Source: Anaerolineae bacterium (lineage in GTDB: Bacteria > Chloroflexota > Anaerolineae > Caldilineales > Caldilineaceae). From it: 64,000 nt of DNA. The stretch is from contig JAUIHI010000007.1 of assembly GCA_030432295.1 (NCBI GenBank), forward strand, positions 1 through 64,000, read 5' to 3'. Each line of letters opens with the position of its first letter. Position 1 is the stretch's first letter. Positions 34,146 to 40,564 of the stretch are shown in pieces. A program made the position numbers and the translations under genes. The notes beneath the pieces were generated by a model. The model did not search any database, was not told the origin of the DNA, and saw only the letters and a list, made by a program, of their open reading frames with translations.

Positions 34146-34781
34146 CTAGCGGATGGCATCCAGGCGTTCTTTGAGGGCTGGTGGCGTCAACGGGCCGGAA
34201 TAGACTGCCGAGATCGCCCCAGAATCGTCGATGAAATAGGTGGTCGGCAGACCACGCACCGCATATAGTTTGTTCAATGCACCCTCGGAATCGAGCACAA
34301 CCGGCGTTGTCATCGCAAAGTCATCTGCAAAGGCGGCGACCGCGCCCTGCTCTTCCTGAACATTGACAGCCAACAGGACCAGATTGGGATCACCCACAGC
34401 CGTACGCATAAGTTCGGGCATTTCCAAACGGCAAGGCCCGCACCAGGTGGCCCAGAAGTTGATGACAACAGGACGGCCACGCAGATCGCTCAGGGAAAGA
34501 TGGCTGCCGTCTTCGAGCACCAGCGCGAAGTCCGGCGCGGGCGCACCCGGCTGCAAAGAGGGGGTGCTCTTGCCGCCTGGGGTCATCTGCGCGGAGGGAT
34601 AGCCCCGTCCCACGCCCGCGGGGAAGTCAGCCAGTGCCACCTTCTTGGCAATATCCAGCTTCGCCCCGGCGCTGCTAGCGCCACAGGCCGCCAGTATCAA
34701 TGCGGCAACCACAACCCCCGCCCATGCCCGGAAGCGGTGGACACATCGGTTTGTACTGAAATATCCTTCTCTTGTGGACAT
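34146..34781 (-). CDS. Lipid-anchored TlpA/ResA-like thioredoxin-fold protein
   Basis: A 211-residue protein with a lipobox in LILAACGAS and a TlpA-type redoxin domain: VVINFWATWCGPCRLEMPEL holds the redox CxxC and GLPTTYFIDDSG the cis-proline. It probably acts outside the membrane, reducing disulfides or persulfides. It is last in the sulfur gene set, separated from the secreted rhodanese gene by a hairpin (34813-34854), so it may be transcribed partly on its own. The gene ends 32 nt from the IS terminus. Confidence 0.88.
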   Translation of the reverse strand: MSTREGYFSTNRCVHRFRAWAGVVVAALILAACGASSAGAKLDIAKKVALADFPAGVGRGYPSAQMTPGGKSTPSLQPGAPAPDFALVLEDGSHLSLSDLRGRPVVINFWATWCGPCRLEMPELMRTAVGDPNLVLLAVNVQEEQGAVAAFADDFAMTTPVVLDSEGALNKLYAVRGLPTTYFIDDSGAISAVYSGPLTPPALKERLDAIR

Positions 34782-34897: not shown

Positions 34898-35884
34898 TTA
34901 TTCGAGGGGCTTGGACGGATCGTTGGCCCACTCTATCCAGGAGCCGTCGTAGTTGCGCACCTGGGGATAGTCGAGCAATTCGGACAGGACAAACCAGGTG
35001 TGCGCGCCACGCACGCCGGTCTGGCAATAGGTGATGACCTGCTTGTCCGGAGCAAAGCCCGCCCGCTGATAGAGATCGGCCAGATAGGTCGTGTCTTTGA
35101 AAGTGCCGTCCTCCGAATTCACTGTATTCACCCACTCCACATTGATCGCACCGGGGATGTGGCCGCCCCGATCAGCGCGCACGTCCGTTCCGGCATATTC
35201 CCCAGGCCCGCGGGTGTCGCAGACGACGGTGGAGGGATCGTCCAGATGCTCAAGCACATACTCGCCGGTTGTGCGCAGGTCCGGGTCCGCGTCCCCAGCC
35301 ATGTATTCGGTTGCAGGCAATGCAGCCACCGCCTCGGTGCTCAGACTGTTGCCATCAGCAACCCACTTTTTTGCGCCGCCGTTGTAGAGACGCACATCCG
35401 CGTGCTGATAGTATTTGAATGCCCAGTAGGCCCGCGCCGACAGCAGATTGTTGTTGCCGTCATAGACGACCAGCGTGTCGTCGTTTTCAATGCCCAGGCG
35501 GCTGAACAGTTCGCCCAGCGCTTCCTGGGTCAGTATCTGGCCCTGGGTCGAGTCGGCGGGGTTGGTCAAATCCTCGCCCAGGTTGACGTAGATGGCATTG
35601 GGCAAGTGGCCGGAGTCAAAATCCTCCTGCTTGCTGCTGATGGCCAGGAAGCGCACATTCGGATCGTCCTGATGGGCCACGACCCACTCTGTGTCGACCA
35701 GAGATTCCGGGGCCGCCACAGACGTGGTTTCCGATGCCGCTGCTGGCTCTGCTGGCTCTGCGGCCTGCTCAGTGGCCGGTTGAGCGGCCGCTTCTGCGGC
35801 TGTGGGTGGGGCGACTGGTGCACAGGCGGTCATCACCAGCGCCAATATCAGAAACAATAGGGGAAGTGAGAAACGGGAACGCAT
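34898..35884 (-). CDS. Secreted two-domain rhodanese lipoprotein (sulfurtransferase)
   Basis: A 328-residue protein with signal peptide and lipobox ALVMTACAP, an Ala/Glu/Pro/Thr-rich linker to about 55, then two rhodanese modules. The second has the catalytic cysteine in ITYCQTGVRGAH and the family-typical VRNYDGSWIEWANDPSKPLE ending. The first lacks a cysteine loop, as usual. It likely transfers sulfane sulfur from thiosulfate or mercaptopyruvate on the outer face of the membrane, next to the transporter encoded upstream. AAGGAG precedes the ATG. Confidence 0.9.
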   Translation of the reverse strand: MRSRFSLPLLFLILALVMTACAPVAPPTAAEAAAQPATEQAAEPAEPAAASETTSVAAPESLVDTEWVVAHQDDPNVRFLAISSKQEDFDSGHLPNAIYVNLGEDLTNPADSTQGQILTQEALGELFSRLGIENDDTLVVYDGNNNLLSARAYWAFKYYQHADVRLYNGGAKKWVADGNSLSTEAVAALPATEYMAGDADPDLRTTGEYVLEHLDDPSTVVCDTRGPGEYAGTDVRADRGGHIPGAINVEWVNTVNSEDGTFKDTTYLADLYQRAGFAPDKQVITYCQTGVRGAHTWFVLSELLDYPQVRNYDGSWIEWANDPSKPLE

Positions 35885-35934: not shown

Positions 35935-36162
35935 TTACTTCCGGGTTAGTGTAATAGTCCATTCCGGCGAACCGGTTTCTTCGATCACCGAGGTGTAACC
36001 GAGCCGCACGGCCTGGGTCGGAATCGTCTCCAGGGCGGGCGCGTGGTCAGTGATCACTTCCAGACCGGCCTCATCGGGCTTGAGTCTCTTGAGCGCCTGG
36101 ACTGCTTTCATCATCGGATAGGGACAGATTTCCCCGCGTACGTCGAGCTGCTTGAGTGACAT
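35935..36162 (-). CDS. TusA-family sulfur carrier protein
   Basis: A 75-residue protein with the TusA signature LDVRGEICPYPMMKAVQAL, where Cys of CPxP carries the persulfide. It is placed directly downstream of the YeeE-type transporter gene, the arrangement known for TsuA/TsuB thiosulfate uptake, where the TusA-like protein receives sulfur from the channel. AAGGAG lies 7 nt before the ATG. It might instead serve tRNA thiolation, but the operon favours uptake. Confidence 0.92.
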   Translation of the reverse strand: MSLKQLDVRGEICPYPMMKAVQALKRLKPDEAGLEVITDHAPALETIPTQAVRLGYTSVIEETGSPEWTITLTRK

Positions 36163-36195: not shown

Positions 36196-37464
36196 TTAGT
36201 CAATCCGTTGAATAATCTGCGTTCCAATCCAGGCACCGATGGCGAGGAAAATGGCGAAGACCCAGCCATTCAGGCCCAGCGACGGGATTGCAGAGAAGAA
36301 TGCGCCGATGGTGCAGCCCATGGCCAGGGCCGCGCCCACGCCCATAAACAGTCCGCCGCCAGCCGCCTGGGCATAACGCCGGTTTTGGCGCGGGCGGCGA
36401 ATTTTGAACTCACCCGAAAAGAGAGCGGCCACAAACGATCCCATGACCATTCCCCACACGAGAAAAAACATATGGCTCAAAAATCCGCTTTCACTCACAT
36501 CCAGGGTGCAGCCGGGCAGACTGGCCGCGCCCAGCAGTTCCCCAGGCCCAACGCCCAGCCCGTTGCTAATGCTCAGCATCCACCGGGAAAGTTCGCCGGT
36601 AAAACCCCAGGGATGGGCCGTGTAGAAAAACATGACATTGAGCGCGCCCAGAGCCACACCGCCGGTCACAGCCGGCCAGCCGTGGACGAATGTCTGGCGC
36701 AGGTTGTCGCCGATACGCGCCCGAAAACCCTCGTCGTCACTGCCTGCAAAGGGTGTCTCTGGGATTACCATTCCGCTGCGGCTTTCCCACCAGACTACCA
36801 GCAGATAGACGCCCAGCAGTGTCAGCAGCGTCAGGGCAATCGCGCCGCCGTGGCCAAAATAGGTGGGCAGCCAGATGCGCCAGCCATCTGCAATCGACAG
36901 GTCCCACCACCAATTCCACGTGTAGGAGGTGACCAGCAGACCGACAAGAATCCCCGCGAAACTCACCCACGAAGCCAGATAGCCCTCGCCCATACGGTAG
37001 ACACTGCCTGAGACACAGCCGCCAGCCACCACCATTCCAACGCCGAAGATCAGTCCCCCCACAACCAGATGCAGGCCAATGGGCAACACATTGGCTTCGG
37101 GCGGCAGAAATCCCAGAGACGGATTGGGCACCTGTTTGCTCATCACCAGCCCAAAGCCCAGCGTGGCCACTGCCAGACCTGCCAGCACCCCCTTCAGCGT
37201 GCGCCCGTGCTGAAGCAGGAAAATATCCCGGAAGGCAGAGGCAAAACAGAAGCGGCTGCGTTGGAGCACAAATCCAAAGGCCAGGCCATACGCCCAGAAC
37301 AGACCCATCTCGGAATTGATACCCATCGCGATCATCCATAAGGCCAGGGCAGCCAGCCCTGCCAGCAAACCCATGCGGACATTAGGGGACACCCTTTCCA
37401 GGAATGAACCAGACTTTGTGTCTGCACCCGCCAATGACTGTTCAACTGCCGATTGTTCACTCAT
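36196..37464 (-). CDS. YeeE/YedE-family (TsuA-like) thiosulfate transporter
   Basis: A 422-residue integral membrane protein with about ten membrane segments and the conserved cysteine-bearing loops GGCVSGSVYRMGEGY and ALAMGCTIGAFFSAIPSLG. These correspond to the cysteines that relay thiosulfate in TsuA. It combines two SUL_transport/YeeE modules and is somewhat longer than minimal members. It sits between a cytoplasmic rhodanese gene and tusA. GAGGAG precedes the ATG. Sulfur substrate specificity is inferred from family and neighbours. Confidence 0.9.
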   Translation of the reverse strand: MSEQSAVEQSLAGADTKSGSFLERVSPNVRMGLLAGLAALALWMIAMGINSEMGLFWAYGLAFGFVLQRSRFCFASAFRDIFLLQHGRTLKGVLAGLAVATLGFGLVMSKQVPNPSLGFLPPEANVLPIGLHLVVGGLIFGVGMVVAGGCVSGSVYRMGEGYLASWVSFAGILVGLLVTSYTWNWWWDLSIADGWRIWLPTYFGHGGAIALTLLTLLGVYLLVVWWESRSGMVIPETPFAGSDDEGFRARIGDNLRQTFVHGWPAVTGGVALGALNVMFFYTAHPWGFTGELSRWMLSISNGLGVGPGELLGAASLPGCTLDVSESGFLSHMFFLVWGMVMGSFVAALFSGEFKIRRPRQNRRYAQAAGGGLFMGVGAALAMGCTIGAFFSAIPSLGLNGWVFAIFLAIGAWIGTQIIQRID

Positions 37465-37523: not shown

Positions 37524-38405
37524 TTATTCATCATTTTTTTCGATGGGAAGACCCGTCACCGACTGCCATTCCAGCCAGGAACCGTCGTAGTTGCGCACAC
37601 GGGGGTAGCCGAGCTGACGCAGCGCCCAATAGGTGTGGGCCGCGCGCACGCCTGAACGGCAATAGGTGACAATCTCTTTGTCCGGGGTAATGCCAACACT
37701 TGCCAATTCAGCCAATACTTCTGGCGCTGGCCGCAGGGCCTCCCACCCATCCACCGGCACAGCGTTCATCCAATCCCAATGCACCGCCCCGGGCACATGA
37801 CCGTCGGCAAATTCCTTTTGACCCCGTGTGTCCACAATCACCACATCCGGGTTGTCCAGATTTGCCAGAAGCCACTCCCGCTCGGCCAAAACCGATTCAG
37901 TCGCCTGGGGGGTAAACTCACCGGGTGCGCCATCTGATGAGATATTTGATGGGTTAGCCTCTGTAGTTGTGACGATTGGCCTGCCTTCGGCCTGCCACTG
38001 ATCCCACCCACCGGTGAGCAACGCGGTGTTGGTAAAGCCATAGCGATGGAGTGCCCACAGCACCCGGGCTGCGGCCATGCCCCAGTTGTCGTCATAGACA
38101 ATGACCGTTGCAGCGGGATGAATGCCAACTCCTGTCATCTTTTCTGCAAAGGGAGCGGACGGCAAGAGGATGCCGGGCACGCCCGCGACTGTCGTACTCA
38201 ACCCACCGAAATCGACATGCGCGGCGTGGGGCAGATGGCCTTCGGAAAAATGTTCCAGAGTACGTACATCCAATAGGCGGAGTGTCGGGTTTGCCAGATT
38301 GTCGTGAAGCCAGGCGGTTGTTACCAGCAGACCTGGCAAATACAATCCATCTTCCTTTTCTGCTCGGTCCGATGCAATAGTTGATTGGCTACTCGTCATA
38401 CTCAT
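37524..38405 (-). CDS. Cytoplasmic two-domain rhodanese (thiosulfate/3-mercaptopyruvate sulfurtransferase)
   Basis: A 293-residue protein with two rhodanese domains; LLDVRTLEHFSEGHLPHAAH opens the first. The catalytic cysteine is in VTYCRSGVRAAH, followed by RNYDGSWLEWQSVTGLPIEK. There is no signal peptide, in contrast to the secreted paralogue at 34898-35884. The ATG at 38405 has AAGGA 6-7 nt upstream; an upstream extension of the frame would run through the terminators at 38434-38506 and is rejected. It is first in the sulfur operon, behind the RNA leader at 38479-38749. Confidence 0.9.
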   Translation of the reverse strand: MSMTSSQSTIASDRAEKEDGLYLPGLLVTTAWLHDNLANPTLRLLDVRTLEHFSEGHLPHAAHVDFGGLSTTVAGVPGILLPSAPFAEKMTGVGIHPAATVIVYDDNWGMAAARVLWALHRYGFTNTALLTGGWDQWQAEGRPIVTTTEANPSNISSDGAPGEFTPQATESVLAEREWLLANLDNPDVVIVDTRGQKEFADGHVPGAVHWDWMNAVPVDGWEALRPAPEVLAELASVGITPDKEIVTYCRSGVRAAHTYWALRQLGYPRVRNYDGSWLEWQSVTGLPIEKNDE

Positions 38406-38433: not shown

Positions 38434-38469
38434 AAAAAAAATGCGCCGCCGGAAAATTCCGGCGGCGCA
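38434..38469 (-). terminator. Rho-independent terminator upstream of the rhodanese gene
   Basis: Read on the minus strand, TGCGCCGCCGGAA pairs perfectly with TTCCGGCGGCGCA and is followed by eight T residues. It is the second of two terminators in tandem and ends about 30 nt before the rhodanese start codon. Confidence 0.9.
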
Positions 38470-38478
38470 GAAGGCAAC

Positions 38479-38506
38479 AAAAAAGCGCTCAGGGCTGCTG
38501 AGCGCT
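38479..38506 (-). terminator. Rho-independent terminator at the end of the structured RNA
   Basis: On the minus strand AGCGCTCAG and CTGAGCGCT flank a 5-nt loop and are followed by six T residues. It closes the candidate RNA 38479-38749. Confidence 0.9.
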
Positions 38507-38749
38507 ACACTTCCTCAGACGACCCTCACCGGACCCAGAAATTGCGGAGGTCCGAGAGGTTCGTATCTTTTGGCTACGACATTTCCTGCCCAGCCCAAAG
38601 CGCGAACTCACGACTCCGCTCTTTACAAGTACAACAGCAGAGGCCGTGACAGATGGCGTTGTTTTCGGCAGGGACCAAAGAAATGGCTACAATCTCAAGC
38701 ATTGGTTGTCTCGTTCCAGGGAATGAACAACAACTGATTTTGCAATGCG
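38479..38749 (-). ncRNA. Unclassified structured RNA or attenuator leader, about 270 nt
   Basis: Between a near-perfect promoter and a terminator there is no reading frame, but there is much potential pairing. A 5-prime hairpin uses GCATTG (38743-38748) with CAATGC (38699-38704), continued inside by GTTGT/ACAAC and TTCC/GGAA. Further on are TCGTA/TACGA, and CCTC...CGGACC with GGTCCG...GAGG around 38524-38560. I looked for hallmarks of RNase P, tmRNA, SRP RNA, 6S RNA, T-box and SAM-I and found none. It may be a stand-alone small RNA or a cis-regulatory leader for the sulfur operon 75 nt beyond its end. Confidence 0.65.
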
Positions 38750-38755
38750 GATAAG

Positions 38756-38784
38756 AGTATATACAGGCATGGGTTTGATGTCAA
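38756..38784 (-). promoter_or_regulatory. Near-consensus sigma-70 promoter of the structured RNA / sulfur operon
   Basis: On the minus strand TTGACA, a 17-nt spacer, then TATACT. Predicted transcription start is near 38749, exactly at the base of the first hairpin. It is among the best promoters in the window. Confidence 0.85.
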
Positions 38785-39789: not shown

Positions 39790-40206
39790 CTACAGAAGTG
39801 TCATCAGTTCATCGATCGTTGTCAGAAAAATCCCTTCCTGACCCAATAATTCGGCGATAGCGTGGGTGCGCAAATCATCATCAGCGGTGATCAAATAGTC
39901 CGCCATTCCGTAGACCGCTGTCGCAATTACTTTGTCATCATCCGGATCGCGACAGACCGCAGGGATATGCGGCAGGTCGATCATCTCCATCTCAACAGCT
40001 AGTTGGGTGAGGAATATGCGCCGCAATTCGGGGTAGATCAACTCAGCAATCCCAGGCGCATCCAGAATCCGCTGATATTCATCCAGGAGAAGAGGGGAAC
40101 AGACAACAGTTATACGCCTGGACGCCCAAGCCATCACAAAAGTAGCCAGTTCTGGTGGGCGCATCAGAGCGCGCACCAGTTGATTGGTGTCGATAGTCAC
40201 GCGCAT
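39790..40206 (-). CDS. PIN-domain toxin
   Basis: A 138-residue PIN-domain protein. Acidic residues at the expected places: Asp6 in VTIDTNQLVRAL, Glu in LLLDEYQRIL, Asp in DPDDDKVIATA and YLITADDDL. This matches the family annotated as PIN-family toxin components, which cleave RNA using magnesium. The partner gene ends 3 nt upstream. Confidence 0.85.
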   Translation of the reverse strand: MRVTIDTNQLVRALMRPPELATFVMAWASRRITVVCSPLLLDEYQRILDAPGIAELIYPELRRIFLTQLAVEMEMIDLPHIPAVCRDPDDDKVIATAVYGMADYLITADDDLRTHAIAELLGQEGIFLTTIDELMTLL

Positions 40207-40209
40207 TTT

Positions 40210-40473
40210 TTATGAACCAGTGGTACGACGCGCCATTTTTATGCGTGAGTCGAGTTCCTTATCGCTGATGACCGGTGGGGTAAATCCTTCTGCGATAGCT
40301 GCCTGAATCGCCGCCATCACCCGGTCAAATCGCAACCGCCGCTCCGGGCTATCCTCGGCAGGCTCGTCCGACATCACCATTACCGCAACTCTTGAGCCAA
40401 CCGGTATGCTGGCGGGCAGGGCAATTGTTCTGGTCGCATTGACAGTTGAAATAAACGCAGGAATCTTATGCAT
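40210..40473 (-). CDS. Putative antitoxin paired with the PIN toxin
   Basis: An 87-residue protein, MHKIPAFISTVNATRTIALP and onward, with VGSRVAVMVM and a helical Arg-rich tail (SPERRLRFDRVMAAIQ). The first half looks like a short AbrB/SpoVT-like beta strand pair; the tail would wrap the toxin. ATG 40473 has GAGGA 9 nt upstream; the frame is open for 15 further codons but without such a site. Confidence 0.65.
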   Translation of the reverse strand: MHKIPAFISTVNATRTIALPASIPVGSRVAVMVMSDEPAEDSPERRLRFDRVMAAIQAAIAEGFTPPVISDKELDSRIKMARRTTGS

Positions 40474-40564
40474 ACGAATCGTCCTCTTCTTTGCATCTAC
40501 AGCTTTCGCATCTGACACTACCGGAATTCTAACGCAGGAATGGCTATTCGTAAAGCGAAACGGG

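Follow-up and report, generated by a model that had tools for sequence, protein, structure and literature searches.

The trp, his, leu and ilv attenuators combine a translated leader that carries a run of codons for the pathway amino acid with alternative helices and an intrinsic terminator. The leader described here, which lies on the minus strand of a 64,000-nucleotide stretch of DNA that we refer to as the window, resembles these systems in having a short leader ORF, a control codon run, alternative helices and a terminator before the first gene. It differs from them in that the signal would be cysteine, in its occurrence in Chloroflexota, in the presence of one extra alternative helix (A:B, B:C and C:terminator, as against the usual 2:3 and 3:4 scheme) and, in the leaders that precede rhodanese genes, in a second terminator that the classical attenuators do not have.

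Mycobacterial polycysteine leaderless short ORFs, in work from 2020 ascribed to Canestrari et al., reportedly control sulfur and cysteine genes in response to cysteine. The likeness to our locus lies in a Cys-codon run within a short upstream ORF that is associated with sulfur and cysteine genes, whereas the arrangement differs: the mycobacterial ORFs are reported to open directly at the mRNA 5' end and to regulate translation, while here the predicted transcription start is ~47 nt upstream of the ATG, so that the ORF would not be leaderless, and the ORF is followed by intrinsic terminators. In Actinobacteria, cysteine leader peptides have also been described ahead of cys operons in Mycobacterium and Propionibacterium and of cbs in Bifidobacterium; their Cys runs lie close to the stop, and a conserved terminator hairpin was not found (PMC1262725). 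Unlike these, the present leader has terminators and covarying alternative helices. CruR (DUF2946), a copper-responsive upstream ORF, encodes a conserved 145-residue protein that contains the motifs CXXC and RAPP, and works through Rho-dependent termination (PMC9426467). Our locus shares with CruR a Cys-containing upstream ORF that is proposed to control transcription of the following genes, but its 42-aa peptide has neither a DUF2946 nor any other Pfam match, and there is no RAPP in its sequence. The 'metL' leader peptide of Streptomyces lividans metNIQ ends in ..ARCMCRRMCAF before the stop, with three Cys close together (PMC8079986), and from this sequence could be reading cysteine codons instead of methionine.

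In the open-access literature that we searched, we found no description of a leader-peptide attenuator in Chloroflexota, nor of a terminator-based cysteine attenuator there. If the model developed below is correct, a whole class of mostly uncultured Chloroflexota would set cysteine synthesis and thiosulfate use by codon-counting attenuation. The model gives predictions at the level of single codons and single helices, and the covariance model would allow many small leader genes that now lack annotation, and through them cysteine regulons, to be annotated from sequence.

Leader architecture and the cysteine-codon ORF

The original prediction described a promoter, a folded RNA of no known class, tandem terminators and a rhodanese gene starting shortly after the second of these, and this framework holds in all its parts (Table 1). 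The promoter boxes, TTGACA at 38784-38779 and TATACT at 38761-38756, are separated by a 17-nt spacer, and 28 of 35 related leaders are preceded by a promoter close to consensus (allowing up to 2 penalty points across 12 bases), a match that shuffled flanks rarely reach. Transcription is predicted to start at ~38749. Between the promoter and the two terminators lies a leader of ~270 nt that folds more stably than expected by chance (minimum free energy -98.8 kcal/mol, against -84.4 +/- 4.8 for shuffled sequences; z = -3.0). Terminator 1 (38506-38484) consists of the arms AGCGCTCAG/CTGAGCGCT followed by T6, and nearly all related leaders have a terminator at the same place. Terminator 2 is found in 9/9 rhodanese-type leaders, always ~14-25 nt from terminator 1, and is absent from the leaders of cysK and M24 peptidase genes; only ~30 nt separate its T run from the rhodanese ATG. 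The leader matches no Rfam family at the gathering score. With permissive filters and E values up to 10, the search returned terminator-like sub-threshold matches only, with no riboswitch or T-box among them; the best of these (anti-hemB, at 29.2 bits against a threshold of 49.5, RcsR1 and suhB) fall mainly over the terminator hairpins. A search of a plasmid collection gave no match.

Table 1. Features of the leader and of the genes downstream (window coordinates).
Feature	Position	Strand	Evidence or remark
Sigma-70 type promoter, TTGACA-17-TATACT	38756..38784	-	sequence; near-consensus promoters in related leaders
Leader ORF, 42 aa, MLEIVAISLVPAENNAICHGLCCCTCKERSREFALWAGQEMS then stop	38574..38702	-	in-frame ATG, Cys run and stop position kept in seven homologs
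Control codons TGC TGT TGT ACT TGT (Cys-Cys-Cys-Thr-Cys)	38625..38639	-	conservation; TGT preference
Segment A, GCGGAGTCGTGAGTT	38605..38619	-	directly 3' of control codons; A:B covariation
A:B inner helix, CTTTGGGC (38600-38593) / GCCAAAAG (38574-38567)	38567..38600	-	alignment, pair listing
Segment B, AACCTCTCGGACCTCCGC	38544..38561	-	partner of A or of C
Segment C, GGTCCGGTGAGGGT	38522..38535	-	partner of B or, via GGGT, of terminator 1
Antiterminator, GGGTCGTCTGAG...CTCAGCAGCCC	38492..38525	-	exclusive with terminator 1; own against swapped arms
Intrinsic terminator 1, AGCGCTCAGCAGCCCTGAGCGCT and T run	38479..38506	-	-14.5 kcal/mol
Intrinsic terminator 2, TGCGCCGCCGGAATTTTCCGGCGGCGCA and T8	38434..38469 (hairpin 38469-38442)	-	-26.2 kcal/mol
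Two-domain rhodanese (sulfurtransferase), first structural gene	37524..38405	-	Pfam Rhodanese, E 2.7e-43
YeeE/YedE-type sulfur (thiosulfate) transporter	36196..37464	-	Pfam Sulf_transp, E 3.1e-63
TusA sulfur carrier	35935..36162	-	Pfam TusA, E 1.4e-16
Second rhodanese	34898..35884	-	Pfam Rhodanese, E 1.8e-33; putative operon member by strand and spacing
Thioredoxin-like (AhpC/TSA, redoxin) protein	34146..34781	-	Pfam AhpC-TSA, E 1.5e-23; putative operon member by strand and spacing

The leader had been taken to be without coding potential, and on this point the earlier description was mistaken. An ORF of 43 codons runs from an ATG at 38702 to a TAG at 38574, between the promoter and the first structural gene, and relatives keep the frame, the run of Cys codons and the stop. 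In an alignment with five related loci, the best-conserved stretch is TGYTGYTGYAYYTGY followed by GAGCGGAG, which in frame reads Cys-Cys-Cys-Thr/Ile-Cys; all seven homologs have an in-frame ATG, the CCC[T/I]C motif and a stop exactly 16 codons after the Cys run. Among close relatives the Cys codons change at the third base only, while the rest of the peptide drifts, with 9 amino-acid-changing against 2 silent codon changes between G000 and G005. We considered selection on the sequence of the leader peptide and found no support for it, amino-acid-changing substitutions being more frequent than silent ones. The minority Cys codon of the window's genes, TGT, is favoured in leaders (TGT:TGC = 84:31, against 74:123 in a background that comprises this window's genes only, the leaders coming from several genomes). 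Taken together, the drift of the peptide, the retention of the Cys codons and the preference for TGT point to a leader whose codons matter, and not its product. The leader ATG has no clear Shine-Dalgarno sequence.

This pattern also bears on whether a Cys-rich nascent peptide might sense metal or redox state in the manner of CruR, with a CXXC-type site for copper and with peptide-dependent arrest, not the supply of Cys-tRNA, driving the switch. Cys-rich upstream ORFs that act through the nascent peptide do exist (PMC9426467). However, the leaders differ in how many Cys residues they have and in how these are spaced (CCCTC, CCCC, CxC, CCCPACFCPCP), the remainder of the peptide is unconserved and contains no recurring arrest motif, and the downstream genes serve cysteine supply and not metal handling. 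We therefore regard peptide sensing as very unlikely.

Further upstream on the same strand, a gene for a PIN_3-domain protein (39790-40206) is directly preceded by an ORF for 102 aa (40210-40518) with no Pfam match; together (39790-40518) they probably form a toxin-antitoxin pair of the PIN type, which lies immediately upstream of a sulfotransferase gene.

Competing helices and the proposed switch

Conservation and covariation in relatives, on which the original prediction had staked itself, are both found. The leader contains three segments, A, B and C, of which B can pair with A or with C, and C with B or with terminator 1. In 12 diverged leaders, from which short bulges in B were removed by hand, 96% of the cells in the A:B alignment are paired and 7/13 pairs have changed on both sides; none of 500 shuffles was as good (0/500), and slid partners gave 39-67%. 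The inner helix of A:B lies around the leader stop codon and has one mismatched pair in the window copy. We also compared the pairing of each leader's own arms with that of arms swapped among 26 leaders, permutations in which relatedness was handled only by the choice of representatives. Own arms paired better for A:B (p = 5e-5; mean -24.2 vs -19.5 kcal/mol), and every A favours the region downstream of it over the corresponding regions of the other leaders; the same holds for B:C (p = 5e-5, own partner best in 21/26), which forms a hairpin of -18.3 kcal/mol in the window, and for C:terminator (p = 0.005, own partner best in 18/26).

In the window, the C:terminator helix reads GGGU..CUGAG/CUCAG..GCCC; RNAfold arrives at it unaided, with -11.7 kcal/mol as against -14.5 for terminator 1. 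Its sequence varies among leaders while the pairing is kept: GGGUC/GACCC (G030), GGGAG/CUCCC (G011), GGGGA/UCCCC (G019), GGCGGA/UCCGCC (G023b), GAAUACGGUGA/UCACCGUAUUC (G016) and, before a cysK, GAUGCGAUGAGUC/GACUCAUCGCAUC (G102). This behaviour is relevant to the idea of a ligand-binding riboswitch, or of a T-box that reads tRNA-Cys directly, with the short ORF incidental. A long structured leader with terminators upstream of a sulfur operon is what such an element would look like, yet the Rfam search returned neither, even at permissive thresholds, the leaders differ widely in structure with the pairing alone kept, and the in-frame Cys run is the sole conserved stretch that is free of pairing constraint. 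We find this explanation barely credible.

Instead, we suggest that the leader is very probably a ribosome-mediated, cysteine-codon transcription attenuator of the leader-peptide type, a reading built on features that sequence and comparison establish. These are the ORF with its run of Cys codons, the terminators, the helices, which are conserved and mutually exclusive, and the association with genes of cysteine supply. The terminators lie between the leader ORF and the first gene, the codon run is for the amino acid that the downstream genes supply (the thiosulfate operon here has CCCTC, and Cys runs likewise precede cysK and other cysteine-supply genes), and an exclusive antiterminator helix lies beside the control codons. 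RNA polymerase would start near 38749, and a ribosome would translate the leader of 42 codons. As long as Cys-tRNA is plentiful, this ribosome would cross the Cys codons and then segment A and would reach the stop at 38574, keeping A from B, so that B would pair with C and terminator 1 would form. The stop lies 16 codons past the Cys run, and a ribosome that does not stall on the run would presumably still keep A unpaired. When Cys-tRNA is short, the ribosome would stall on the Cys run and the free A would pair with B; C, thus released, would capture terminator 1 by its 5' arm and loop, and polymerase would continue into the rhodanese/YeeE-YedE/TusA thiosulfate-assimilation operon. In other words, expression would presumably rise as cysteine runs short.

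We modelled a non-stalled ribosome by masking A. Because the equilibrium probability of the terminator is ~1 whether A is free or masked, we used G(T)-G(no T) as the measure instead. Masking raised the advantage of terminator 1 in the window from -0.6 to -5.6 kcal/mol; among 31 leaders, 24 lay above their shuffled-A mean, with a modest mean gain of +3.1 vs +1.8 kcal/mol for shuffled A, and in some, e.g. G027 and G102k, the effect was opposite and the terminator was not favoured. Given that the effect over the 31 leaders is positive but modest, the switch is best seen as kinetic. Indeed, A:B and terminator 1 can coexist at equilibrium, which requires the switch to be kinetic.

For the operon to be expressed, polymerase must also pass terminator 2, for which we found no convincing antiterminator. 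Once freed, the 3' arm of terminator 1 (GCGCUUU) can pair with terminator 2 at its base (in G003, AAAGCG), by eye over 7 bp in G003 and 4 bp in the window, and over 4-7 bp across the rhodanese leaders. This pairing suggests a bolder reading, which we hold to be doubtful, in which rhodanese leaders would be two-stage cascades, the 3' arm of terminator 1 disarming terminator 2, and the wider system would form a regulon of cysteine attenuators that is old and shared across the GTDB class to which Caldilineaceae belong. A single signal of cysteine shortage would then disarm two successive terminators, making a very tight switch.

Distribution and gene context

Related leaders are present in Caldilineaceae and Litorilinea assemblies, which places the window in a Caldilineaceae-type member of Chloroflexota. 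A first covariance model, built from the seven closest leaders, found more within the family; a second, built from 14 leaders, was run on 396 genomes of the class. The leader precedes 8/8 orthologs of the window's rhodanese gene in 46 Caldilineaceae genomes, while more distant rhodanese paralogs are not among the covariance-model matches. This constancy can be set against the possibility that the tandem terminators mark the end of an independent, abundant small RNA and that the rhodanese operon is driven by a different promoter. A strong promoter, tandem terminators and a terminator 2 that has no clear bypass would suit such an RNA, but the leader always accompanies the gene start and recurs before other cysteine genes, and little room is left between terminator 2 and the rhodanese gene; we consider the possibility extremely unlikely. 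A discrete RNA of ~270 nt would also be expected as the terminated form of an attenuator leader. The original prediction had offered an abundant small RNA or a riboswitch or attenuator sensing a sulfur compound. Of these, an attenuator tied to a sulfur compound, in the form of cysteine supply, is favoured, whereas the ligand riboswitch and the small RNA are not, because the sensor would be the translated cysteine-codon leader ORF that had been overlooked.

Within the family, the leader is also found upstream of M24-family peptidases and of a DppA-like peptide-binding protein (L053, L056, L059, L117, L058), which could reflect the salvage of peptides for their cysteine; G010 has an M24 peptidase that lacks the leader. 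At the level of the class, Cys leaders precede cysteine synthase (cysK; G101, G329, G170, G159), a ThiS/MoaD-type sulfur carrier with a rhodanese-like gene behind it (G236, G146), a NIR/SIR-domain (nitrite/sulfite-type) reductase (G334) and sulfurtransferases (G213, G163, G144). Weak class-level matches that lie in coding sequence or have no Cys leader, e.g. L101, L107, L110, L111, L113 and L114, were left out of this set. A phylum-wide draw of 301 genomes, searched with strict filters, returned the window itself and one weak match from the same class, and none beyond the class. An exact pattern scan of GTDB genomes gave matches outside Caldilineaceae and relatives that look like chance and lie inside other coding sequence, several of them in what looks like one conserved gene.

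Two incomplete loci were observed at contig ends. G003 has a second rhodanese-type leader copy with both terminators (L010:4267 to the contig end), where the contig stops before the downstream gene can be read, and G016 (L057 / L021) has a Cys leader, MLFQLSGCYPLCCWLCKERRQ then stop, with an 11-bp antiterminator before a truncated gene of unknown kind.

In the genome that the window comes from, cysK (L163) lacks a leader. In a model-free survey of cysK genes, an upstream Cys-run ORF (short, with three or more Cys codons in a stretch of five) was found before 14/70, compared with 1 in antisense and 1.8 in shuffled sequences; additional cysK leaders carry CxC. Five cysK leaders have an extra Cys as the last codon before the stop, with the C-terminal ends ..GLAC, ..VAAC, ..EHTC, ..DQAC and ..EFTC (L096, L099, L143, L146 and L147), as if a second cysteine checkpoint were placed at the end of segment A.
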